The notes under the pieces: generated by a model
The model's database searches: none
Seen by the model: the letters and a program-made list of their open reading frames with translations, nothing else
What the model was told of the DNA's origin: nothing
From: Eubacterium sp.
GTDB taxonomy: Bacteria > Bacillota > Clostridia > Lachnospirales > Lachnospiraceae
Length of the DNA stretch: 37,996 nucleotides
Assembly: GCA_021769425.1 (NCBI GenBank)
Contig: JAETSX010000033.1
Location: forward strand, 1-37,996
Direction of reading: 5' to 3'
Position numbers and translations under genes: made by a program
In this document: positions 3 through 11,620 of the stretch, one piece after another
How the letters are laid out: the number at the start of each line of letters is the position of its first letter
Position numbering within the stretch: the first letter of the stretch is position 1

Positions 3-461
3 AATATGGAAATAAACAGTTGTATATGCAATTGGAAGCGTGACAGGAAAATGAGCAAATCTGTGACGGCGGGTGAGGCTGAATCTGTGACAGCTCATGA
101 AGTTATTAACAAGAATATGTACCGGAAATTTGCAGTCCGGTTTGCCCAGAATGACACTTACCACACTGCGGTAAGCTTCCGGCCCCTGGAATCCATTGTG
201 AAAATAGACCGGAAGTTTTCAGGGAGCAGAAGGGCAATCATCCATCAGCGGCGCAGCCGGGTGAACAGCAGGAATGGAGAAATCAAATTACGGATTATCC
301 TGGATATGTTCAGCGTTGAAGTGTTTGTCAATGACGGGGAACATGTATTGTCCGCAACCATGTATACTGATAAGGAAGCGGACGGCGTTTCTTTTCTTGT
401 GGACGGCGTAGCTGCCATGGATGTGGTGAAGTATGATTTATTGACGGAGTCCTGCGGGTGA
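3..461 (+). CDS. GH32 family beta-fructosidase, C-terminal part (cut by window edge)
   Basis: The frame is open to the left edge, so this is the 3' end of a longer gene; the ATG at 6 is probably internal. About 150 residues remain. The stretch LRIILDMFSVEVFVNDGE near residues 95-112 matches the beta-sandwich module that closes GH32 enzymes (typical form LRIFVDxSSVEIFVNDGE), and the SxxPLxSIVKIDRKFSGSRR segment before it fits the same fold. The five-bladed propeller with the catalytic residues lies outside the window. GH32 enzymes release terminal fructose from sucrose, fructo-oligosaccharides, inulin or levan. The gene ends 295 bp from the end of the convergent LacI-type gene, and a second, complete GH32 gene lies at 5347-6879, so it probably belongs to the same sugar locus. 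Whether the upstream part is intact cannot be judged here. Confidence 0.75.
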   Translation, partial: NMEINSCICNWKRDRKMSKSVTAGEAESVTAHEVINKNMYRKFAVRFAQNDTYHTAVSFRPLESIVKIDRKFSGSRRAIIHQRRSRVNSRNGEIKLRIILDMFSVEVFVNDGEHVLSATMYTDKEADGVSFLVDGVAAMDVVKYDLLTESCG

Positions 462-756: not shown

Positions 757-1752
757 TTAGGAATGGTTTGTAGTATATTTTTGCACCAGTTCATTCGGCA
801 CAATTGTTTCGCATGGGAGATAATTATCGAACCCATCTATGGCCAGGCGCGCCATCAGGGAAATATTCTGCGCCACAGAGGTGATTGGATAAATCGCGCA
901 TTCTGATATCGGCGAATTATCATAGCCAATAATCTCTACCTCTTCCGGAATGGACAGATTGCTTAAGATGCATTGCTGTTCAAATAACCTTGCAATATCG
1001 TCGTTGGAACAGAAGATTCCCCATTTTTTCCCTTTGTATTTCCGAAGTAGACTTTCTACGATTTCCTTCATTGCCCGTACCGCAGAAGGCATAAACGGTT
1101 CGGACAGTTCCTGACGTATGATTCTTTCATAGGTCTGTCCCTCCATCAGGCACTCGAACCCCACGATTCGCTTAAAGGATGGCCACATGGTGCTGTAGCC
1201 GTTGTTGATATGGGCAAATACTTCACAATTGTTATTTAGCAAAAGCTGGGCGGCTAAATTCCCTCCGGTGAAATTGTCGCTGTTAATCTGCATGAAATTT
1301 CCTCCGGAACGCTCAATGGTGATGACGGGCACAGGCAGGCCGGCAATGTCATCGGCGTCTAACAGGGGGCTTAACAGAATCAGCCCTTTGGGGTGGTACT
1401 GGCACAATGCCTGGATTGCCGTAAGTTCTTCTTTTTTTGATTTCCCGGAGGTATAAGGAATGAAATGATATCCCTTTTCTTTGCCGGTTTCTATCAATTG
1501 GTTCAGCAGTTCTGTATAGAAACCGAACTGGAGATGGGGCAGGATGACAAGAATCAGGTTTGTATTGCGCAGTTCTGGCGTCTGCATCGACCATCCGGGC
1601 TGAAAATTCAATTCTTTCAGCTTCTGCTCAATCTTCTTGCGGGTAGCGTCGGAAAGCAGGTCAGGATTATTGAAATATCTGGATACAGTGGAAACGGAAA
1701 TGTTACAGGCAGAAGCAATATCCTTTATATTGACTCTGTTGCTTTTTTTCAT
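757..1752 (-). CDS. LacI-family transcriptional regulator of the fructan operon
   Basis: The 331-residue protein opens with a LacI-type helix-turn-helix (residues 7-28, VNIKDIASACNISVSTVSRY) and a hinge helix (DATRKKIEQKLKELNFQPG), followed by a periplasmic-binding-like effector domain with the usual late motif EEVEIIGYDNSPISECAIYPITSV. I place the start at the ATG complementary to 1750-1752, preceded by GAGGGAG about 7 nt upstream; the longer open frame to 2022 encodes an unlikely hydrophobic extension and runs through promoter DNA. The gene is divergent from the transporter operon beginning at 2134. Local regulators of this family normally sense the imported sugar or a product, so it most likely represses the operon through the palindromes at 1913-1940 and 2084-2099. 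Effector identity is unknown. Confidence 0.9.
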   Translation of the reverse strand: MKKSNRVNIKDIASACNISVSTVSRYFNNPDLLSDATRKKIEQKLKELNFQPGWSMQTPELRNTNLILVILPHLQFGFYTELLNQLIETGKEKGYHFIPYTSGKSKKEELTAIQALCQYHPKGLILLSPLLDADDIAGLPVPVITIERSGGNFMQINSDNFTGGNLAAQLLLNNNCEVFAHINNGYSTMWPSFKRIVGFECLMEGQTYERIIRQELSEPFMPSAVRAMKEIVESLLRKYKGKKWGIFCSNDDIARLFEQQCILSNLSIPEEVEIIGYDNSPISECAIYPITSVAQNISLMARLAIDGFDNYLPCETIVPNELVQKYTTNHS

Positions 1753-1787
1753 TGTATTCTCCCTCACATAATGAATGTTTTGAAAAA

Positions 1788-1816
1788 AGTATAGCATAAC
1801 TATGAAAACAAGTAAA
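1788..1816 (-). promoter_or_regulatory. Probable lacI promoter
   Basis: Read on the minus strand, a TTTACT -35 (1811-1816) and TATACT -10 (1788-1793) are separated by 17 bp. The predicted start near 1781 leaves a leader of about 28 nt before the regulator ATG. Inferred from consensus and spacing only. Confidence 0.5.
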
Positions 1817-1912
1817 CAGAAAGGATCCCATAAATTACCTGTAATGAAAGATATCTTGAAAATTCTTTTGCAAATAATTTTGAAAAAAGAATTCAAAGAA
1901 AATGAAAGTGGA

Positions 1913-1940
1913 TTTATAATGAAAATATTTTCATTATAAA
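1913..1940. promoter_or_regulatory. 28-bp perfect palindrome, probable regulator operator O1
   Basis: Every base from 1913 to 1940 pairs with its mirror across 1926/1927. The inner 16 bp are ATGAAAATATTTTCAT, the same ATGAAA-N4-TTTCAT arrangement as the site at 2084-2099. It lies between the divergent regulator and the transporter operon, centred 165 bp from the second site, so repression by looping is possible. Confidence 0.6.
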
Positions 1941-2045
1941 GTGAATGAAACCAAATATAAATAGTGGATAATGCACAAAATAGGATGAAAAAAGAACTTA
2001 TACTATTATTAAAATTAGTCATAACGACGAAGAAAAAAATAGAGG

Positions 2046-2073
2046 TTGCATAATTTTAAAATGATGCTATAAT
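2046..2073 (+). promoter_or_regulatory. Promoter of the sugar ABC transporter/GH operon
   Basis: TTGCAT (2046-2051) and a perfect TATAAT (2068-2073) are separated by 16 bp. Transcription would begin near 2080, just ahead of the palindrome at 2084-2099. Confidence 0.7.
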
Positions 2074-2083
2074 GAAAATATAA

Positions 2084-2099
2084 ATGAAATATATTTCAT
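2084..2099. promoter_or_regulatory. 16-bp perfect palindrome, probable regulator operator O2
   Basis: ATGAAATATATTTCAT is perfectly self-complementary and differs from the core of the 28-bp palindrome only in the central four bases. It sits right after the predicted transcription start, a classic position for a repressor that blocks initiation or clearance. LacI-family binding is inferred from context; the AT-only centre differs from the central CG of many LacI-family sites. Confidence 0.65.
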
Positions 2100-2133
2100 A
2101 AAATGAAAATTTAAATCAAAGGAGAAGGAGAAA

Positions 2134-3420
2134 ATGAAAAAGAAAATCATCAGTATGTTGCTTGTGTCGGCGATGGCAGTATCGCTTGTTGCAGGATGCG
2201 GCGCAAAGAAAGAAGAAAGCAAGTCTCAGGAGACCCAGGGAACCCAAGAGTCCCAGGAGTCCCAGGAAACTCAGGAGTCCCGGGAGGAAGATGGGAGCAG
2301 CATTACAGTGCTGGTGGAAAGCGGCTCCCCGGCAGAGGCGCTTGCAAATGAGACGGCGGCGGATTTTGAAAAGGAAACAGGATGCAAAGTAGTGGTGGAT
2401 GCAGTCGCTTATACAGGAATGTACGATAAACTTTCCACGGAAATCAAAGCAGGAGAAGCGACGCATGATGTTGGATGTCTGGATGTTGTATGGCTTGCCG
2501 CATTCAAGGATGCCATAGAGCCAATCAATAACGCGGATACCAGTGATTTTCTTCCGACGCTGGAGGAGAGCGGCACATTGGACGGGAACCTTTTGGGCTA
2601 TCCTATGTGGGTGAATGCGAAAGTGCTGATTTACAGAAAGGACCTGATTCCGGAAGATAAAGTGCCTAAGACCTGGGAGGAATACCAGGCGCTTGCCGAG
2701 GAACTTGCCGGAGGAGATATGTATGGGACGACTGTATTTGGAAGTGGAACGGATGCAGTTTGCTCTTTCCTTGATTTTGCCTGCCAGGCTGGCGCCAAAG
2801 GCCTTGTGTTTGGCGAAGACGGCAAAGTCAACATCACAGACCAGGCGTACGTGGATGCTTTGAAATTTATGGTGGAAAATGCGAGTGCGGATTATACCCC
2901 GGCAGATTCCTTGTCAACAGCGGCAACAGAGTCACAGGAATTGTTCACAAATGAGAAGGTTGCTATGCAGCTGAACTGGAGCCATCAGTATCCGGCGGCA
3001 GTGGAAGCGTTGGGCGCAGACAAAGTCGGATGCGCTCCGATGATTGCAGGAAGCGCAGGAATCGGCGCTACCACAGGCCCCTGGTATGAATGCGTCATGA
3101 AAAATTCTGCCAATAAAGAGATGGCTTTGAAATATGTAGAATATATGTATGAACATAATGGGGATTATATGGATCTTACTTTAAAGATTGCAGGAAGGAA
3201 ATCCGTATATGAGAAAGCTGGAAGCGAAGCAGGATTGGAACATACGAAAGCAGTCCTTGAGACATTAGATTCCGAACAGTCCCAGGCAAGGCCGATGGTA
3301 ACTACCTGGGCACAGATTGAAGAGGTATTGGTAGGGGTTGTGGAGTCCTGCCTTGGCGGAGGCGATATTGAATCAACTTTGGAATCGGCAGCGTCAGAGA
3401 TAGAAGCGATTAACCGATGA
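2134..3420 (+). CDS. Sugar ABC transporter substrate-binding lipoprotein (family 1)
   Basis: The 428-residue protein begins with a lipoprotein signal (MKKKIISMLLVSAMAVSLVAGC; lipobox LVAGC, Cys22 as lipid anchor). A flexible Gln/Glu/Ser/Thr linker of imperfect QESQET-type repeats (about residues 27-50) comes next, then an extracellular solute-binding family 1 fold (SITVLVESGSPAEALANETAADFEKETG; later PKTWEEYQALAEEL and TTGPWYECVMKNS). It is anchored outside the membrane and delivers an oligosaccharide to the permeases at 3506 and 4418. A strong site (AAGGAGAAGGAG) precedes the ATG. First gene of the operon that also encodes GH32 and GH91 enzymes, so the ligand is probably a fructose-containing oligosaccharide or dianhydride; that specificity is inferred from neighbours only. 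Confidence 0.92.
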   Translation: MKKKIISMLLVSAMAVSLVAGCGAKKEESKSQETQGTQESQESQETQESREEDGSSITVLVESGSPAEALANETAADFEKETGCKVVVDAVAYTGMYDKLSTEIKAGEATHDVGCLDVVWLAAFKDAIEPINNADTSDFLPTLEESGTLDGNLLGYPMWVNAKVLIYRKDLIPEDKVPKTWEEYQALAEELAGGDMYGTTVFGSGTDAVCSFLDFACQAGAKGLVFGEDGKVNITDQAYVDALKFMVENASADYTPADSLSTAATESQELFTNEKVAMQLNWSHQYPAAVEALGADKVGCAPMIAGSAGIGATTGPWYECVMKNSANKEMALKYVEYMYEHNGDYMDLTLKIAGRKSVYEKAGSEAGLEHTKAVLETLDSEQSQARPMVTTWAQIEEVLVGVVESCLGGGDIESTLESAASEIEAINR

Positions 3421-3467
3421 TGATTGGTTGAATAAGAAGCAGAGGGCGTCCTGGGTGCATTGGAATG

Positions 3468-3485
3468 GGAAAGGGCGCCCTTTCC
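3468..3485. promoter_or_regulatory. Intra-operon GC palindrome/hairpin after the binding-protein gene
   Basis: GGAAAGGGCGCCCTTTCC is an 18-bp perfect palindrome, followed by CTTTGTG, in the 85-bp gap between the binding-protein and first permease genes; an alternative stem pairs AGGGCG near 3443 with CGCCCT. It ends about 8 nt before the permease ribosome site. Such hairpins often stabilise the upstream message or reduce read-through, giving more binding protein than permease. This role is inferred. Confidence 0.5.
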
Positions 3486-3505
3486 TTTGTGAAGGAGAAA
3501 ATAGA

Positions 3506-4390
3506 ATGAGATTGATTTCAAGAAAAACATTATTGCTGTTCTTTCTGCCAGGCGCAGTGTTTATGGGAGCCTTTTTGATTTATCCCATTATCACAATGGT
3601 GATTGACAGCTTTTATGACATTGGAATTACCGGCGAGAGGGCCTTTGTTGGACTGGAAAATTACATACGGGCGTTTACGGCGGGCGGGTTTTTAAAGCAG
3701 TTAAAAAATACACTGGTTTATATTGTTTTGGCGGTTGGACTGGAGACATTCTTTGGGGTGATGTTTGCCTTGTTCTTTGAGCTGAATTACCGCGGAAGTA
3801 AAATTGTCCGTTCCCTGATGATGGCTCCCCTGATGATTGCGCCGCTGGTGGCGGGCCTTACCTGGAAACTGATGATGAGTTCCAGCTTTGGCATTGTAAA
3901 TGAATTGCTGACAAGGGTTGGAATTCTGGAGCAAAGCAGTGATATCCTGTGGCTAGCAGATGCCAACTGGTCATTGATTGCATGCTGCATTGCTGATATA
4001 TGGCTGACAACTCCATTTATGATGCTGATGACGCTGGCAGGGCTGCAGGGATTGGATTCCAGCATGCTGGAGGCCGCTAGGATTGATGGGGCGAATCTGT
4101 TCCAGCAGATTTTATTGATAAAATTGCCGAATATCAAGCCGGTATTATTGACGGCTCTGTCTGTCAGGATTATAGATGCAGCCAGGACATTTGATATTAT
4201 ATGGGCCATGACGGAAGGAGGCCCAAACAGTTCGTCGGAAACCATCAGTATTATCATTTATAAAACACTGGCAAGATATAACCAAGTTGGATATGCAAGC
4301 GCTATGGCTGTCGTTTTCATTGCCGTATTAGTGCTTTTTACACTGGTATTTATGCAGAATCTATGGAACCCGAAGAAAAAGATGAGTTAG
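3506..4390 (+). CDS. Sugar ABC transporter permease (MalF/UgpA type)
   Basis: An integral-membrane subunit of 294 residues with about six hydrophobic segments, the first at RKTLLLFFLPGAVFMGAFLIYPIITMV. The ABC-ATPase contact loop of this family is visible as EAARIDGANLFQQILLIKLPNIKPV. I choose the ATG at 3506 because GAAGGAGAA lies 8 nt upstream; the in-frame ATG at 3428 lacks a ribosome site and would add a hydrophilic tail translated from the intergenic hairpin. It would pair with the second permease at 4418-5248 to form the pore for the lipoprotein-delivered sugar. No ATPase gene is in the operon, a frequent arrangement when a shared MsmK/MalK-like ATPase serves several importers. Confidence 0.92.
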   Translation: MRLISRKTLLLFFLPGAVFMGAFLIYPIITMVIDSFYDIGITGERAFVGLENYIRAFTAGGFLKQLKNTLVYIVLAVGLETFFGVMFALFFELNYRGSKIVRSLMMAPLMIAPLVAGLTWKLMMSSSFGIVNELLTRVGILEQSSDILWLADANWSLIACCIADIWLTTPFMMLMTLAGLQGLDSSMLEAARIDGANLFQQILLIKLPNIKPVLLTALSVRIIDAARTFDIIWAMTEGGPNSSSETISIIIYKTLARYNQVGYASAMAVVFIAVLVLFTLVFMQNLWNPKKKMS

Positions 4391-4417
4391 CGCAGACTGA
4401 GTGCAAGGAGGATGAAC

Positions 4418-5248
4418 ATGAAGAAAAATTTCAGTATCGGTAAGAATATCGGGATTGCCCTGTCTGTAATTCTCACAGTGTTTTGGCTTTTCCCATACAT
4501 ATATGTTGTGTGCTGTTCCTTTAAAGCGGGTTCGGAAGTGGTTGCTGTCCCTCCAAAGTTTTTCCCGAAAGCTTTTTCCGTGGAGAATTTCACCGGGCTG
4601 TTTGAGCGAATGGATACGGTGCAGTTTTTTGTCAACAGCCTGACGGCTGCGGTTGCAAGCACGGTCATAGCTTTGATTTTGGGATCCCTTGCGGCATACG
4701 CAATTCAAAGGTCCGGGGCAAAGCTGTCGGTGTTCCTTGTGGTATTGGTGCTGTGCCTGAAAATGATACCTACATCAAGTATCGTGGTCCCCATCTATGA
4801 ATTGATTTGCACCTTAGGGCTTTATGATACAAAAATTGCATTGATTATTGTGTATGCGGCAATCAATATGCCTTTTGTCATGTGGACCATGCTGAGTTTT
4901 TATGAGGGGATACCTACCACGCTGGATGAGGCGGCGTATGTGGACGGCGCCAGCAGCTTCCAGACGTTTCGGAAAATAATCCTGCCAATCTGTACTCCGG
5001 GGCTGGCAACGGCATTTATCTTTACGCTGTTTCTGGCGTGGAATGACTTTTTGGTTGCGCTGCTTCTCACAAGCACAAACGCAAAAACATTTACTGTTGG
5101 CCTGGCAGGATTTTTGTCTGCATATAATCTTGATTTGGGGCCGATGTGCGCAGGAGCGTTCGTGTTTAGTTTCCCTGTCATGATTATCTCTCTTGTTGCC
5201 CAGAAATATATCGTAAGCGGCATGACGGCGGGCGCGGTGAAGGGATAG
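4418..5248 (+). CDS. Sugar ABC transporter permease (MalG/UgpE type)
   Basis: The 276-residue partner permease has an N-terminal membrane segment (IGIALSVILTVFWLFPYIYVVCCSF), the PTSSIVVPIYELICTLGLYDT region, and the ATPase-contact motif DEAAYVDGASSFQTFRKIILP. Its C-terminus (AQKYIVSGMTAGAVKG) is the typical end for MalG-like subunits. Two ATGs are close together; the one at 4418 sits 6 nt from AAGGAGG (4405-4411), whereas the one at 4412 abuts it, so 4418 is preferred. It begins 27 nt after the previous stop and is surely co-transcribed. Together with the proteins at 2134 and 3506 it forms a CUT1-type oligosaccharide importer. Confidence 0.92.
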   Translation: MKKNFSIGKNIGIALSVILTVFWLFPYIYVVCCSFKAGSEVVAVPPKFFPKAFSVENFTGLFERMDTVQFFVNSLTAAVASTVIALILGSLAAYAIQRSGAKLSVFLVVLVLCLKMIPTSSIVVPIYELICTLGLYDTKIALIIVYAAINMPFVMWTMLSFYEGIPTTLDEAAYVDGASSFQTFRKIILPICTPGLATAFIFTLFLAWNDFLVALLLTSTNAKTFTVGLAGFLSAYNLDLGPMCAGAFVFSFPVMIISLVAQKYIVSGMTAGAVKG

Positions 5249-5263
5249 CTATTTATGGCAGAA

Positions 5264-5322
5264 GGAAAGAAAGCTGTCCGCGCAGAAAATACCGGCAGGA
5301 AAGAAAGCTGTCCGCGCAGAAA
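5264..5322. repeat. Two 25-bp direct repeats, 34-bp period
   Basis: The same 25 bases (beginning GGAAAGAAAGCTGTCCGCGC) occur at 5264-5288 and 5298-5322, and the flanking CCGGCAG is shared too, so a unit of about 34 bp has been duplicated. It fills the gap between the second permease and the GH32 gene and ends just before the GH32 ribosome site. Confidence 0.85.
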
Positions 5323-5346
5323 GATGCCGGCAGAATGGAGAATATT

Positions 5347-6879
5347 ATGTCTAAAGAATTAATGAAAAAAAATATCGAAAAAGCACAGCGGGAGATAGAT
5401 GAAAAAAAGGAAATTATAAAGAATGGAAAAATGCGCCAGCATTACCATTTTATGCCTCAGACCGGATGGATGAATGACCCGAATGGATTGATTTATTATA
5501 AGGGAAAATACCATTTCTTCTTCCAATACAATCCTTATTACGGCTTCTGGGATTATATGCACTGGGGCCATGCAATCAGCGATGATATGCTCCACTGGGA
5601 GTATCTGCCCCTTGCGCTGGCTCCCAGTGAAAGCTATGACGACCATATCCGCGGCGGCTGCTTTTCGGGAAGCGCCATTGAACATGAGGGCAGACTGTTT
5701 TTAATGTATACAGGAACTGCCAAGGAGGAACAGGGGTTTGTGCAGACGCAATGCATCGCATACAGCGAAGATGGCGTCCATTTTGAAAAATACGAAGGGA
5801 ATCCGGCGCTGACTGCGCCAGAGGGCATTGCGCCGGAGCATTTCCGGGATCCAAAAGTATGGAAACATGAGGGTATTTATTATATGGTGTGCGGCGGCTG
5901 CTGCGGCCAGAGGGGCCAGGCTCTTCTTTACCGTTCCAAAGACATGTTCCATTGGACATTCTTCAACGTGATGGCGGAAAGCCGCGGGGAATGGGGCTAT
6001 ATGTGGGAGTGTACGGATTTTTACCCTATGGGGGAACGGTATGTCCTGACATTTTCACCGATGGGAGCCGGAGAGCATACAGCTATGTATATGGTTGGCG
6101 ATTTCGATTATGAGACAGGCAGGTTTCATTCCCATATAAGCGGAGAAATCGACTGGGGGTTCGATTACTATGCGCCCCAGTCTTTCCAGGCTCCGGACGG
6201 AAGAAGGATTATGGTGGGATGGGCCAATGAATGGGAATGGATGCCCCTGTGGAAGGACTGGGGTCCCACATACAAGGAAGGATGGTGCGGATTTTTCAAT
6301 ATTCCTCTGGAAGTGCGCATGATGGAAGACGGCACGCTTAAGTTTATTCCGATTGCAGAACTGGAAACTCTGCGGGAGAGCCAGAGGCGGGAAGATGCAT
6401 TTGTGGTGACGGAAGAAGAAAGGGAGCTGGCAGCCGGGGACGGCGTATGCTTCGAACTGAAGATGAAGATAGATCTGGAAAAGACAGATGCAGACAGGCT
6501 GGAGTTGATTTTGCGCTGCGGAGAGGGAAAGAAGACGGTATGTTTGTTTGATTTCCGAAAAGCAGAATTGAGCGTAGACCGAAATGAATCGGACGGATGG
6601 AGCAGAGGCGTTTCGAGAAGCGTACTGTATCTGAAAGGGAAAAAGGAGTTGGATGTGCATATCCTGTCCGATCAGAGTTCCCTTGAAATCTTTACGGACC
6701 AGTATCAGAATAACCATTCCAATAATATATTTGCAGGAAATGCCCAGAATCAATTGAAGATCCGTGCATATGGCGGCATGGCGCTGATACGGGAATACGA
6801 ATCCTATGGGATGAAAGACTGCTTTCACCATAGTGAAATAGGCCATGCAAACGATAAGGAGGATAAAATGAATGGCTAG
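5347..6879 (+). CDS. GH32 beta-fructosidase (cytoplasmic)
   Basis: A complete GH32 enzyme of 510 residues. The three catalytic signatures are present: WMNDPNG with nucleophile Asp44, FRDPKVW with transition-state stabiliser Asp168, and WECTDFY with acid/base Glu221. The C-terminal beta-sandwich ends with LDVHILSDQSSLEIFTDQ. There is no signal peptide; the N-terminus is a charged helix (KELMKKNIEKAQREIDEKKE), so it acts in the cytoplasm on imported sugars, releasing fructose from sucrose, fructo-oligosaccharide or inulobiose-type substrates. The ATG at 5347 lies 6 nt after GGAG, which itself overlaps another in-frame ATG at 5335; 5347 is preferred. Its last 8 nt overlap the GH91 gene, implying translational coupling. 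Exact chain-length preference cannot be read from sequence. Confidence 0.95.
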   Translation: MSKELMKKNIEKAQREIDEKKEIIKNGKMRQHYHFMPQTGWMNDPNGLIYYKGKYHFFFQYNPYYGFWDYMHWGHAISDDMLHWEYLPLALAPSESYDDHIRGGCFSGSAIEHEGRLFLMYTGTAKEEQGFVQTQCIAYSEDGVHFEKYEGNPALTAPEGIAPEHFRDPKVWKHEGIYYMVCGGCCGQRGQALLYRSKDMFHWTFFNVMAESRGEWGYMWECTDFYPMGERYVLTFSPMGAGEHTAMYMVGDFDYETGRFHSHISGEIDWGFDYYAPQSFQAPDGRRIMVGWANEWEWMPLWKDWGPTYKEGWCGFFNIPLEVRMMEDGTLKFIPIAELETLRESQRREDAFVVTEEERELAAGDGVCFELKMKIDLEKTDADRLELILRCGEGKKTVCLFDFRKAELSVDRNESDGWSRGVSRSVLYLKGKKELDVHILSDQSSLEIFTDQYQNNHSNNIFAGNAQNQLKIRAYGGMALIREYESYGMKDCFHHSEIGHANDKEDKMNG

Positions 6880-8272
6880 CAGAAATTATTATGACGTGAC
6901 AGAATGGCCTGTGGGAGATCCCTATAGGGATATTGGCCAGGTGATGAACAGCATTCTTGCAGATGTGAAAAGCAGGCAGACGGATTCTGATGAAAACGAA
7001 GGAGGAAAGCCGGGGGCGGTGATTTATATTCCGCCGGGCGATTATCATCTTGCTACGCAGGTGGTGATTGACATCAGTTATCTGAAAATCATGGGTTCCG
7101 GGCATGGCTTTACTTCTTCCAGCATTCGTTTTAACTTTCCTGAGGATGAATGGGCGGACTGTCATGAATTGTGGCCGGGAGGAAGCCGTATCCTTGTGGA
7201 CCTTCCTCCTGCGCCTGAGGATGAAGAATGGAGAGGGGCTGCATTTTATGTAAAACGCAGCGGGAACCCGCGGATTAGTTCTGTAGAGTTTGCCGGCTTT
7301 TGCATAGACGGTTTACATTTTACGGAAGATGGTTCTGAGGAGACAAATCCGGAAAATACATATACCAATGGAAAGACGGGAATCTATATTGCAAGCCCCC
7401 AGGACGCCTTTCAGATTACGGGCATGGGGATTGTGTATTTGGAGCATGGTGTTACGATTTATCATGCGGATGCTTTGAGCATACACGATAATTTCATAGC
7501 GGAATGCGGCAGCTGCATAGAACTGCGGGGCTGGGGGCAGGCTTCCAAGGTGACGGATAACCTGATAGGAGCCGGGTATAAAGGATATTCCATTTACGCC
7601 CAGAATTTTGGAGCCCTTTTAATTACGGCGAATAATATTTTCCCCCGGGGAGCCAGCAGCGTTTATTTTGACAATGTGGCGCGCTCTGTGGTTGCCAGCA
7701 ACAGATTTCATTCCTTTTACCCGGGAATGCTGACATTCCGGGGAAATTGTTCGGAAAATATGGTTTCCTCCAACCATTTCCTGAGAGACCGGGAACCCTG
7801 GCCGCCTATGTACGCCCACGACAATGGCCTGGATGATTTGTATGGGCTTTTGTATATTGAAGGCAACGATAACACTATAACCGCCAACCACATTTCTGAG
7901 GTGATTGACAAAAAGCATATCAGGCCCTGCAGTGCAATGCCTGTAATCATCCATATTGTTTCGGGAAGGGGGAATTATATCTCCGGCAATCATATTGTTG
8001 CAAATACTGAGATGGCAATAGAGCCGGACGGCAAAGAAAGTTCTGGTTTCTTTGCAGCAGCCGAAGGGGCAGTCAGCCAAAAGGATTCCTGCTTCTCTAT
8101 GCAGGTGGATGCGCTGCTGGCTGTCAAAGAATTGGAAACCCTTGATGTAATAACGGTATTGGTGGAGGAGAAGGCCGTTAAGAATACGGTTATTGATTCA
8201 GGAAGCGATGCGCAGGTTGTTATGAATAAAAAAGCAAATGCATTCCGGGCTACGCCAGGAATAGGAAGATAA
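6872..8272 (+). CDS. GH91 protein: difructose-anhydride hydrolase / inulin fructotransferase family
   Basis: Recognised from the opening YYDVTEWPVGDPYRDIG, the segment KPGAVIYIPPGDYHL (residues 46-60) and GSGHGFTSSSIRFN, all characteristic of inulin fructotransferases with a right-handed beta-helix. In HDNFIAECGSCIELRGWGQ the acidic pair Asp206 and Glu217 is spaced 11 residues, the spacing I recall for the catalytic Asp/Glu of the Bacillus enzyme (D233/E244). Family members either cleave inulin into difructose anhydride I or III, or hydrolyse the dianhydride to inulobiose. Unlike the secreted polymer-cleaving enzymes this 466-residue protein has no signal peptide, and it is translationally coupled to a cytoplasmic GH32 behind an importer. 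I therefore favour an intracellular hydrolase of imported difructose anhydride; this is inference. The start at 6872 has AAGGAGG 9 nt upstream. Confidence 0.85.
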   Translation: MASRNYYDVTEWPVGDPYRDIGQVMNSILADVKSRQTDSDENEGGKPGAVIYIPPGDYHLATQVVIDISYLKIMGSGHGFTSSSIRFNFPEDEWADCHELWPGGSRILVDLPPAPEDEEWRGAAFYVKRSGNPRISSVEFAGFCIDGLHFTEDGSEETNPENTYTNGKTGIYIASPQDAFQITGMGIVYLEHGVTIYHADALSIHDNFIAECGSCIELRGWGQASKVTDNLIGAGYKGYSIYAQNFGALLITANNIFPRGASSVYFDNVARSVVASNRFHSFYPGMLTFRGNCSENMVSSNHFLRDREPWPPMYAHDNGLDDLYGLLYIEGNDNTITANHISEVIDKKHIRPCSAMPVIIHIVSGRGNYISGNHIVANTEMAIEPDGKESSGFFAAAEGAVSQKDSCFSMQVDALLAVKELETLDVITVLVEEKAVKNTVIDSGSDAQVVMNKKANAFRATPGIGR

Positions 8273-8446: not shown

Positions 8447-8469
8447 GTTCTCAGAAAGGAGGAATGCTA

Positions 8470-8778
8470 ATGGCAGAAGAAAAGGAATCCTGCAATTGCC
8501 ATAGAACGAAAGAACGCTCTGCAAAGGAATACAAAGATTTAATCAATCGTCTCAACCGGATTGAAGGCCAGATCCGGGGCATTAAGAGGATGGTGGAAAA
8601 AGACGCTTACTGCCCGGATATTCTGATTCAGGTGGCGGCGGCCAACGCAGCGTTAAACAGTTTCAATAAAGTTCTGCTGGCGAATCATATTAAGACCTGC
8701 GTCACCAATGATATTCGGGAAGGGAGAGAAGAAACGGTGGATGAACTGCTGGCAACTCTCCAGAAATTAATGAAATAA
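8470..8778 (+). CDS. csoR: Copper-sensing repressor CsoR
   Basis: The 102-residue all-helical protein belongs to the CsoR/RcnR (DUF156) family, with the signature INRLNRIEGQIRGIKRMVE (about residues 25-43). The Cu(I) ligand set Cys-His-Cys is complete: Cys48 in AYCPDI, His73 and Cys77 in NHIKTC. Nickel- or formaldehyde-sensing relatives carry other residues, so copper is the best call. An additional CNCH near the N-terminus (Cys8, Cys10, His11) could also bind metal. The ATG at 8470 is 7 nt from AAAGGAGG (8455-8462) and preferred over the ATG at 8464, which is only 1 nt away. It is autoregulated through the operator in its own promoter and lies upstream of copA. Confidence 0.93.
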   Translation: MAEEKESCNCHRTKERSAKEYKDLINRLNRIEGQIRGIKRMVEKDAYCPDILIQVAAANAALNSFNKVLLANHIKTCVTNDIREGREETVDELLATLQKLMK

Positions 8779-8913
8779 AGCCCGAACATTGAGAATTCAG
8801 GCGAAATGAAATAGAGCCCAAGCATTGAGAATTCAGGCGCAATGAAATAAAGCCCAAGCATTGAGAATTCAGGCGCAATGAAATAAAGCCCGAACATTGA
8901 GAATTCAGGCGAT
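8770..8913. repeat. 36-bp tandem repeat, four copies, overlapping the csoR 3' end
   Basis: Copies start at 8770, 8806, 8842 and 8878, exactly 36 bp apart. Each reads ATGAAATA(A/G)AGCCC, then (G/A)A(A/G)CATTGAGAATTCAGGCG, with only a few substitutions; the copy boundaries drift in the last bases. The first copy contains the final Met-Lys-stop codons of csoR, so the array grew out of the gene end into the csoR-copA gap. Each unit carries GAATTC. There are no spacers, so it is not a CRISPR array. Confidence 0.97.
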
Positions 8914-8974
8914 TGGAAAGCTGAGAATAAGCTCTGCAAAACAGTGAAAATCCGTAAAGAACAGAGGTGATAGA

Positions 8975-11620
8975 ATGGAACAGTATACAGTAACCGGCAT
9001 GAGCTGTGCAGCCTGCAGCGCACGGGTGGAAAAAGCAGTATCGCAGGTGGAGGGAGTTACTTCCTGTTCGGTCAGCCTGCTGACCAATTCCATGGGCGTG
9101 GAAGGGGCGGCGCCGGCGCAGGAGATTATAAAGGCAGTGGAGGAGGCAGGATACGGGGCCTCCTTAAAAGGCGGGGCAGCACAGGGGAATCCGGCAGGCG
9201 CGGCAGATGACCTGTTAAAAGACAGGGAAACCCCGCTTCTGAAAAAGAGGCTTTTTGCCTCCCTTGGGTTCTTAATTGTGCTGATGTATTTTTCCATGGG
9301 AACGATGATGTGGGGATGGCCCGTCCCTTCTTTTCTTGAAGGAAACCATGTGGCTATGGGCCTGCTGCAGCTTCTTCTGACTGTGGTTATCATGGTGATC
9401 AATCAGAAATTTTTTGTCAGCGGATGTAAGAGTCTGCTCCACAAATCTCCGAACATGGACACCCTGGTGGCGCTGGGCGCCGGCGCAGCGTTTGTCTACA
9501 GCACATATGCTCTTTTTGCCATGACAGACGCCCAGATGAGGGGGGATATGGCGAAGGTCATGGCTTATATGCATGAATTTTATTTTGAATCAGCGGCTAT
9601 GATTCTGACGTTGATTACGGTAGGAAAAATGCTGGAAGCCAGATCCAAAGGCCGTACCACAGACGCATTAAAGAGCCTGATGAAACTGGCTCCCAAGACG
9701 GCAACCGTACTGCGGGATGGAAAAGAAACAGAGGTTTCCATTGAACAGGTGGTCAAAGGGGATATTTTCCTGGTCCGCCCGGGAGAAAATATTCCCGTGG
9801 ACGGGATTGTGTTAGAAGGAAGCAGCGCCGTCAATGAAGCGGCGCTGACCGGTGAGAGCATCCCCTGTGACAAAACTGTGGGAGATACGGTATCGGCAGC
9901 CACGACCAATCAGTCCGGGTTCCTGAAATGCGAAGCGTTAAGGGTAGGAGAAGATACTGCTTTGTCCCAGATTATCCAGATGGTAAGCGACGCCGCCGCT
10001 ACCAAAGCCCCTATTGCAAAAGTGGCGGATAAAGTATCTTATGTGTTTGTTCCCTCAGTGATTGGAATTGCCATTGTCACGTTGCTGGCCTGGCTTCTGG
10101 CAGGGGAAACCATAGGATTCGCCCTGGCCAGAAGCATCTCGGCGCTGGTGATTAGCTGTCCCTGCGCCCTGGGCCTGGCCACTCCGGTAGCCATAATGGT
10201 AGGTAACGGAATGGGAGCCAAGAACGGAATTATGTTTAAAACGGCCGTTTCCTTAGAAGAAACAGGAAAGATGGATATTGTGGCTCTGGATAAAACGGGA
10301 ACCATTACAAATGGGGAGCCCAGGGTTACGGATGTAATACCTGCAGAGGGTATTTCCGCAGAGGAATTGCTTACAATGGCCGCTGGGCTGGAGCAAAAGA
10401 GCGAGCATCCCCTGGCAAAGGCAGTCCTTCAATATGTCAAAGGAGAGCCGGCAGGAAGCAGCGGTCAGATATCCAAAATTTCTGCAGATGCGCAGATGTC
10501 TGCCGTAAGTCATCAGCTGGAGTTTCCGGAAGTGACAGAATTCCAGGCATTGCCTGGAAACGGCCTTTCCGGCTTGATGGAAGGAACGGAGGTTTGCGGC
10601 GGAAATTACAGATTTATCAGCAGCCGGACAGAGGTTTTGCCGGAATTGAAAAAGAAGTCCGAAGCATTGTCAGAGGAAGGGAAAACCCCGCTGTTTTTTG
10701 CAAAGGACGGAAGGATGCTTGGTCTGATTGCAGTGGCGGATGTGATGAAGGAAGACAGCGCTCAGGCTATACGGGAATTGAAGCGAATGGGAATTCATGT
10801 GGTAATGCTGACCGGCGACAATGAACGGACAGCCAACGCCATCGGCCGTCAGGCAGGAGTGGATGAAGTGGCAGCAGGCGTTCTTCCAGAAGGGAAAGAG
10901 AGCGTCATACGCACCCTGCAAAAAAAGGGCAAGGTTGCAATGGTAGGAGACGGTATCAATGACGCCCCGGCCCTGACCCGTGCGGATATGGGAATTGCCA
11001 TTGGCGCAGGAACGGATATTGCCATTGATGCGGCAGATATTGTATTGATGAAAAGCCGTCTCAGCGACGTGGCAGCCGCCATCCGTTTAAGCAGGGCCAC
11101 ATTGACCAATATCCATGAGAATCTGTTCTGGGCCTTCATCTACAATATCATTGGAATTCCCCTTGCGGCAGGGGTTTGGATTCCTCTCTTCGGATGGCAG
11201 TTAAACCCCATGTTCGGCGCTGCGGCTATGAGCCTTTCCAGCTTCTGCGTGGTGACAAACGCGCTGCGGCTGAATATGAAGAATATTCACGATGGGACAA
11301 AAGACAGGCCAAAGAAAAAGAAACGTCACGATATAGAACTGGCAATGCAAGCCGAAGCTTATCAAAATAAAACTTATCAAAAGGAAGAAATAAAGGAGGA
11401 AATGAAAATGGTAAAGACAATGAAAATCGAAGGAATGATGTGTGGACACTGCGAGGCAACGGTAAAGAAGTGTTTAGAAGCATTTGCAGAAGTATCTGAG
11501 GCTGCAGTGAGCCATGAAGCAGGAACTGCAGTAGTGACGCTGGAAGGAAATATCTCTGATGAAGCGCTGAAAAAAGCCGTAGAGGACAAAGACTACAAAG
11601 TGCTCTCCATAGAGCAGTAA
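8975..11620 (+). CDS. copA: Copper-exporting P1B-type ATPase CopA with C-terminal CopZ-like domain
   Basis: An 881-residue Cu(I) efflux pump. Order of parts: N-terminal heavy-metal domain with GMSCAAC (Cys11, Cys14); membrane helices from about residue 92; actuator domain with TGES (292-295); the transport motif CPC (395-397); phosphorylation site DKTGT (Asp439); SEHP motif (His478); GDGINDAPAL hinge; last membrane helices; a charged linker; and a second metal domain with GMMCGHC (Cys823, Cys826). Most CopA proteins carry their metal domains only at the N-terminus, so the C-terminal one is notable; it is the size of CopZ and has its own internal start (see 11408). The ATG at 8975 follows ACAGAGGTGATAGA. 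It is 196 bp after csoR and presumably under the same copper-responsive control. Confidence 0.95.
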   Translation: MEQYTVTGMSCAACSARVEKAVSQVEGVTSCSVSLLTNSMGVEGAAPAQEIIKAVEEAGYGASLKGGAAQGNPAGAADDLLKDRETPLLKKRLFASLGFLIVLMYFSMGTMMWGWPVPSFLEGNHVAMGLLQLLLTVVIMVINQKFFVSGCKSLLHKSPNMDTLVALGAGAAFVYSTYALFAMTDAQMRGDMAKVMAYMHEFYFESAAMILTLITVGKMLEARSKGRTTDALKSLMKLAPKTATVLRDGKETEVSIEQVVKGDIFLVRPGENIPVDGIVLEGSSAVNEAALTGESIPCDKTVGDTVSAATTNQSGFLKCEALRVGEDTALSQIIQMVSDAAATKAPIAKVADKVSYVFVPSVIGIAIVTLLAWLLAGETIGFALARSISALVISCPCALGLATPVAIMVGNGMGAKNGIMFKTAVSLEETGKMDIVALDKTGTITNGEPRVTDVIPAEGISAEELLTMAAGLEQKSEHPLAKAVLQYVKGEPAGSSGQISKISADAQMSAVSHQLEFPEVTEFQALPGNGLSGLMEGTEVCGGNYRFISSRTEVLPELKKKSEALSEEGKTPLFFAKDGRMLGLIAVADVMKEDSAQAIRELKRMGIHVVMLTGDNERTANAIGRQAGVDEVAAGVLPEGKESVIRTLQKKGKVAMVGDGINDAPALTRADMGIAIGAGTDIAIDAADIVLMKSRLSDVAAAIRLSRATLTNIHENLFWAFIYNIIGIPLAAGVWIPLFGWQLNPMFGAAAMSLSSFCVVTNALRLNMKNIHDGTKDRPKKKKRHDIELAMQAEAYQNKTYQKEEIKEEMKMVKTMKIEGMMCGHCEATVKKCLEAFAEVSEAAVSHEAGTAVVTLEGNISDEALKKAVEDKDYKVLSIEQ
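11408..11620 (+). CDS. copZ: Possible free copper chaperone CopZ from an internal start within copA
   Basis: Within the copA frame, AAAGGAGG (11392-11399) stands 8 nt before an ATG at 11408 (codon 812). Starting there gives a 70-residue protein, MVKTMKIEGMMCGHCEATVKK onward, the length and motif of stand-alone CopZ with Cys12 and Cys15. The preceding codons encode a charged, low-complexity linker (KKKKRHDIELAMQAEAYQNK), suggesting a former copA-copZ boundary that lost its stop. Full-length translation would give the fusion, internal initiation free CopZ. The sequence shows the site; its use is inferred. Confidence 0.5.
   Translation: MVKTMKIEGMMCGHCEATVKKCLEAFAEVSEAAVSHEAGTAVVTLEGNISDEALKKAVEDKDYKVLSIEQ

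Follow-up and report, generated by a model that had tools for sequence, protein, structure and literature searches.

A probable difructose anhydride III utilisation operon in a Lachnospiraceae gut bacterium

Results

A GH91 protein of the DFA-III hydrolase class

Positions 757 to 8,272 of a contig from Eubacterium sp. very likely hold an operon with which this Lachnospiraceae gut bacterium uses difructose anhydride III (DFA-III). The contig, 37,996 bases long and one of 228 in a 4.9 Mb genome, was analysed as a whole and is referred to here as the window. A sequence-only reading had proposed that this segment carries a LacI-type regulator, a lipoprotein-dependent importer, a GH32 protein and a GH91 protein; open reading frames (ORFs) and domain searches confirmed both the gene set and its order. 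Gene content, enzyme class, the lack of leaders (crudely assessed) and the conservation of a putative operator make up the part of the argument that is read from sequence.

The class of the GH91 protein (gene at 6872-8272, plus strand) was assigned by PDB match, alignment and tree. In the PDB search the protein aligned with the solved DFA-III hydrolase (DFA-IIIase) 5zks over residues 1-465, with a score of 638 bits (E 4.9e-191), as against 359, 338 and 262 bits for the fructotransferases 9j4i, 2inu and 8hsn, whose best stretches end at residue 379-387. Identity over the alignment is 64.4% with 5zks and 72.7% with the GH91 of Blautia parvula, compared with 49.5% for 9j4i and 49.3% for 2inu. The window protein carries the C-terminal lid segment, described as the feature that lets AcDFA-IIIase hydrolyse DFA-III (PMC11538131): positions 380-407 contain 28 residues, versus none in a lidless plasmid-borne GH91. 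The loop is unusually long, the median in 86 sequences being 9 and the Blautia parvula enzyme having 13; only one relative (L053, 69 residues) exceeds it. The inulin fructotransferases 2inu, 9j4i and 8hsn belong to the same family, and the Pfam match of the window protein, Beta_helix_2, is itself described as a "beta helix repeat of inulin fructotransferase"; these enzymes, however, have no lid segment. In the PDB search, designed TIM barrels also matched residues 85-136 of the window protein weakly (E 5e-6 to 5e-5), probably a chance effect of composition.

For the tree, 89 sequences were aligned: the window protein, 84 relatives, 5zks and three lidless GH91 proteins. Three loci lying on the same contigs as others (L060, L062 and L070, with L017, L016 and L018, respectively) and one with a stop-interrupted GH91 (L021) were left out. 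One of the lidless rows, StoSoilB13_IFT, is labelled a fructotransferase by inference only and may not be one, as it shows neither an evident leader nor an Asp at position 206. In a quick tree of all 89 rows, a branch of length 1.57 (SH-aLRT 99) separates the three lidless from the 86 lidded sequences, placing the fructotransferases across a long branch from the window protein. The latter falls inside the DFA-IIIase group, where it joins relatives L023 and L024 with support of 100/96 in a careful tree whose bootstrap had not fully settled. Because the characterised Blautia and Arthrobacter enzymes sit in different parts of the lidded group, the window protein lies between enzymes that have been reported to be DFA-IIIases. 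The GH91 protein is thus, as judged from its sequence, a DFA-IIIase, predicted to hydrolyse DFA-III. Identity as an inulin fructotransferase was ruled out, given the lid, the missing leader and the grouping apart from the lidless rows; the protein does not lie among the secreted inulin-cleaving enzymes, a position that the sequence-only reading had named as fatal to its own proposal.

The Arthrobacter/Paenarthrobacter DFA-IIIases (5zks and the AaDFA IIIase of PMC4640833) are likewise lidded and retain the catalytic Glu, with 64% identity between 5zks and the window protein, but are of actinobacterial origin. Crude hydropathy and inspection by eye revealed no hydrophobic leader in either GH32 or GH91, whereas that of the solute-binding protein (SBP) is clear, bearing out the earlier view that both enzymes lack a signal peptide. 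That view had been coupled with the statement that known GH91 enzymes are secreted. This holds for the fructotransferases; for the DFA-IIIases it does not, since an enzyme without signal peptide (PMC4640833) and an intracellular one (PMC11538131) have both been published. The idea that a family otherwise secreted had here been put to a new use inside the cell was discarded on the same ground (PMC4640833), and the intracellular GH91 is explained by membership in an enzyme class already known.

The catalytic pair Asp206/Glu217 had been correctly identified in the window protein. A suspicion that the pair had been misplaced was dropped, as it aligns with D199/E210 of the fructotransferase chain 2inu; the pair is also present in 9j4i and, by spacing, corresponds to D233/E244 of BsIFTase and D207/E218 of AaDFA IIIase (numbering from PMC4640833). 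Glu217 is invariant (89/89). Residue 206, on the other hand, is Asp in 72/89 sequences, Asn in 15, His in one and Ser in one, so that Asp is not a strict criterion for a DFA-IIIase. All 15 Asn and the single His occur among the 86 lidded sequences and the Ser in one of the three lidless (the plasmid GH91). The Asn-bearing sequences comprise 11 from Enterobacterales and those of Sporolactobacillus, Companilactobacillus, Halanaerobium and Metabacillus; the His belongs to the solved 5zks.

Correspondence with the DFA-III cluster of Blautia parvula

Direct comparison with the chromosome of Blautia parvula NBRC 113351 (locus L063), the characterised strain, which has a single GH91, disclosed a cluster of the same order and orientation as in the window: LacI, SBP, two permeases, GH32 and GH91. 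ABC importer, GH32 and GH91 are found together at both loci. Protein identities by tblastn are 54% for LacI, 74% for the SBP, 86 and 85% for the permeases, 77% for GH32 and 70% for GH91; the two clusters thus have six genes in common at 54-86% identity, among them that of the DFA-IIIase BpDFA-IIIase (LC508_RS12690; PMC11538131). The species differ in the spacing between GH32 and GH91 (an 8-nt overlap in the window, a 59-nt gap in Blautia parvula), and the Blautia parvula cluster was reported with an extra GH39 gene and with no regulator mentioned in the main text (PMC11538131). We conclude that the locus is a further example of the known Blautia-type DFA-III cluster and not a new system.

The reaction of GH91, its coupling to GH32 and the use of DFA-III by cluster-bearing strains are taken from the work of others on the homologous Blautia system. 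According to Ye et al. 2024 (PMC11538131), BpDFA-IIIase interconverts DFA-III and inulobiose reversibly, DFA-III being favoured 59:41 at equilibrium, and in combination with a GH32 enzyme of Bifidobacterium dentium converts DFA-III fully to fructose. Three of the four cluster-bearing strains described there grew on DFA-III, while the fourth, B. hansenii, which is unable to use fructose, broke DFA-III down to that sugar; neither growth on DFA-III nor its degradation was seen in a B. wexlerae strain that lacks the cluster. The same authors proposed a scheme of import, GH91 action and GH32 action for the Blautia parvula cluster (PMC11538131).

The reversibility of the reaction, with DFA-III favoured at equilibrium, could be taken to mean that GH91 acts here as an intracellular inulin fructotransferase, making DFA-III rather than opening it. 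We consider this extremely improbable: the sequence falls in the lidded DFA-IIIase group, and the GH32 encoded next to it would be expected to consume inulobiose and so drive the reaction toward hydrolysis, in line with the coupled assay of PMC11538131.

A conserved palindrome between lacI and the importer genes

The LacI-type regulator (757-1752, minus strand; PF00356/PF13377, Peripla_BP_3) is divergent from the operon. Its ORF was listed as 757-2022, but about 90 N-terminal codons of this are probably spurious and the likely start is the ATG at 1752. The gap between lacI and the SBP gene contains two exact palindromes of the form ATGAAA-N4-TTTCAT, predicted to be LacI operators: ATGAAAATATTTTCAT at 1919-1934, the core of a perfect 28-bp palindrome (1913-1940), and ATGAAATATATTTCAT at 2084-2099 (neither assigned to a strand). 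On each strand the first shares two bases with a promoter-like -10 hexamer, identified by consensus match only. Since promoter-like sites occur near the shuffled rate (19 versus 12.8, sd 4.6), the promoters are regarded as indicated and not as located.

With a threshold of at least 50% identity, LacI orthologues were recognised at 12 of 88 related loci, including Blautia parvula (54%), where ATGAAA-N4-TTTCAT also occurs between lacI and the SBP gene, in two overlapping places. The exact palindrome is present in the gap in 11 of 13 regions (the window and these 12 loci), and L020 and L025 have it with one mismatch; the shuffled control covers the exact form only. When the 13 regions were dinucleotide-shuffled 500 times, the exact motif turned up in a mean of 0.016 regions and in at most 1/13. 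The 13 loci are not independent, five of them being Enterococcaceae. Throughout all 88 loci (1.70 Mb, three places held twice) the motif occurs 13 times, 12 of these in the gaps in question and one in locus L030, which is also the only one of the 47 SBP-bearing loci lacking a LacI orthologue to have it within 500 nt. The 4.9 Mb genome contains the motif in three places: the two described here and a third inside a serine-recombinase-like ORF (judged by eye), so that its intergenic copies are confined to this operon.

These data argue that the divergent LacI is probably a dedicated repressor responding to DFA-III (or inulobiose) and acting through ATGAAA-N4-TTTCAT operators, in an arrangement common to Lachnospiraceae, Clostridium, Enterococcaceae and Lactococcus. 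No published account of this operator was found in the open-access literature searched, and the terms LacI, regulator, operator and repressor do not occur in the main text of PMC11538131. The operator, to which binding is predicted from the sequence pattern, is thus the part of the present description not seen in print. The conserved palindrome makes regulation inexpensive to test and can serve as a marker in the search for functional clusters; if the prediction is true, palindrome and LacI together would mark the regulon for DFA-III use.

In locus L030, the palindrome lies next to a two-component system and to another gene that resembles an SBP gene (by eye).

Proposed pathway and alternative substrates

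The importer is encoded by three plus-strand genes: a solute-binding lipoprotein of a sugar ABC importer (2134-3420; PF13416/PF01547, SBP_bac_8/1) with lipobox LVAGC (read by eye), a MalF/UgpA-type permease (3428-4390) and a MalG-type permease (4412-5248), both matching PF00528 (BPD_transp_1). They are followed by the GH32 beta-fructofuranosidase (5335-6879, plus strand; PF00251/PF08244, TIGR01322 above cut-off). The latter retains WMNDPNG, RDP and EC, the catalytic motifs of GH32.

We propose that the lipoprotein captures DFA-III and that the permeases import it, with energy probably supplied by a shared MalK/MsmX-type ATPase encoded elsewhere. In the cytoplasm, GH91 would reversibly open DFA-III to inulobiose, and GH32 would split inulobiose into two fructoses, pulling the reaction forward. 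LacI would repress the operon, and probably also itself, with a sugar of the pathway, either DFA-III or inulobiose, relieving the repression. Transport specificity, regulation, inducer and ATPase are the parts of this scheme that we infer. Because the operon carries no ATPase gene, the single ATPase with a MalK OB domain in the genome, on another contig, is a candidate partner of the importer.

The sequence-only reading had suggested the same succession of import, opening to inulobiose by GH91 and cleavage to fructose by GH32, and this is supported by the DFA-IIIase grouping and the homologous Blautia route (PMC11538131). Of the substrates it named (DFA-I, DFA-III or short inulin fragments), DFA-III is retained; DFA-I is unlikely. 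On the present analysis the earlier mechanism very probably holds, with DFA-III as the substrate.

The importers found near GH91 in relatives are in keeping with import as the first step. Among the relatives compared, which were the best 80 of 131 confirmed ones, both permeases were detected in 56, an MFS_2 symporter instead in 19 and neither in 5. Pfam confirmed MFS_2 in the three that were tested (L067, L058 and L096). That two unrelated importers stand beside the same enzyme supports uptake of the substrate before cleavage. A RafY-like porin lies beside L067.

DFA-I or some other dianhydride is hardly credible as the substrate of the operon. A DFA-I hydrolase acting on caramelised sugar has been reported (PMC8605356), so other dianhydrides do reach such bacteria. 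DFA-I, however, was not hydrolysed by BpDFA-IIIase (data not shown there) and was degraded by none of the five strains in PMC11538131, findings on which DFA-I was rejected as substrate. The known bacterial DFA-I hydrolase, moreover, is a GH172 enzyme (PMC11538131, PMC8605356), and a search of the window genome, made without a positive control, yielded no GH172 match. The DFA-I operon of Bifidobacterium dentium combines, like the window, a LacI regulator, an ABC importer, a leaderless dianhydride hydrolase and a GH32; its hydrolase is nevertheless the unrelated GH172 and its substrate the other dianhydride (PMC8605356).

A less remote, though still unlikely, alternative is that the importer mainly takes up short inulin-type fructo-oligosaccharides, from whose ends GH91 would cut inulobiose or DFA-III units inside the cell for GH32 to finish. 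DFA-IIIases and fructotransferases have a core and the Glu in common, and GH32 enzymes act on fructans generally. In addition, BpDFA-IIIase acts in vitro on GF3 (nystose), GF4 and inulin (PMC11538131). For such a diet, however, GH32 alone would suffice, leaving the constant presence of GH91 to be explained. Two Blautia wexlerae strains differed in growth on DFA-III according to whether they had the cluster; 1-kestose, by contrast, was degraded by every one of the five strains but B. hydrogenotrophica, and so also by the strain lacking the cluster (PMC11538131). The genome itself has two GH32 N-terminal domains, one in this operon and the other on contig 24 beside LacI-like and SBP-like genes (by eye); this second GH32 could serve oligosaccharides.

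Uptake and hydrolysis of DFA-III remain the preferred interpretation, against which several observations weigh. The activity of BpDFA-IIIase on nystose, GF4 and inulin leaves room for imported inulo-oligosaccharides. The Asp partner of the catalytic pair is not universal, although the D207N mutant of AaDFA IIIase was inactive (PMC4640833). Only 51 of the 80 relatives yielded a GH32 close to GH91 (three GH32 queries were used, and the misses may be divergent GH32s), and in L023 and L024, the closest relatives by GH91, the partner is another GH32 (39 and 38% identity), which comes after GH91. The nearest solved binding proteins are of the maltose and sulfoquinovosyl-glycerol types, at a low similarity that is uninformative on the ligand. 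The operon contains no fructokinase, the best match in the genome to an operon-linked PfkB kinase reaching only 30%. Finally, L030 (Clostridium sp. LS, 4174) has the palindrome upstream of an SBP gene in a genome where no LacI orthologue was found (best 28%).

In Arthrobacter (A. ureafaciens, H65-7), the DFA-IIIase is believed to act after an extracellular fructotransferase that the same strain makes (PMC8605356). By contrast, GH91 is present as a single copy in the window genome, and no own fructotransferase was found with a query that does detect the lidless GH91 on an Arthrobacter plasmid. Having only one GH91, the cell would depend on DFA-III made elsewhere, by heat or by other microbes.

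The GH32-GH91 junction

GH32 and GH91 overlap by 8 nt (6872-6879, ATGGCTAG), and a strong AAGGAGG lies 9 nt upstream of the GH91 start. The overlap had been interpreted as translational coupling. While it is real, a gap of 14 to 1781 nt separates the two genes in 40 of the 41 relatives with GH32 upstream of GH91 on the same strand. In the exception, L086, the overlap would be 23 nt, but two stops interrupt the GH32 stretch. The overlap is thus local and unconserved, and coupling as a conserved device was ruled out.

Distribution of GH91 and neighbouring genes

DFA-III, a cyclic sugar built from fructose, occurs in caramel and is made from inulin; it is produced on an industrial scale and has been proposed as a prebiotic (PMC11538131). 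Knowing its users in the gut matters for predicting responders. The present locus adds a further species of Lachnospiraceae to the range of the Blautia DFA-III cluster, which is patchy in the family: out of 397 genomes of the family that were examined, counting that of the window, 13 gave any GH91 match, several of the matches being fragments. Within the genus, GH91 was found in 2 of 29 genomes (again counting the window's own), the other copy being broken. The latter (genome G399) is in two pieces, L106 and L107, which are 87 and 72% identical to the window's GH91, the first piece being interrupted by two stops; in this species the gene is apparently in decay.

GH91 relatives also occur on plasmids, in 85 records, of which Rhizobium, Agrobacterium and Sinorhizobium account for 78. 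One such locus (L122) combines GH91 with LacI, a complete ABC importer including the ATPase, and a beta-fructosidase. A plasmid of Arthrobacter sp. StoSoilB13 (L121) carries two GH91 genes that point in opposite directions some 4 kb from each other, one lidded and the other lidless, the latter with no evident leader.

Elsewhere in the window, positions 3-461 (plus strand) encode the C-terminal part of another GH32 (Glyco_hydro_32C), truncated by the contig start; it owns neither of the two GH32 N-terminal-domain places in the genome. Directly downstream of the operon, at 8464-11620, a gene for a CsoR-like repressor of the metal-sensing kind precedes one for a P-type heavy-metal ATPase that has two HMA stretches.

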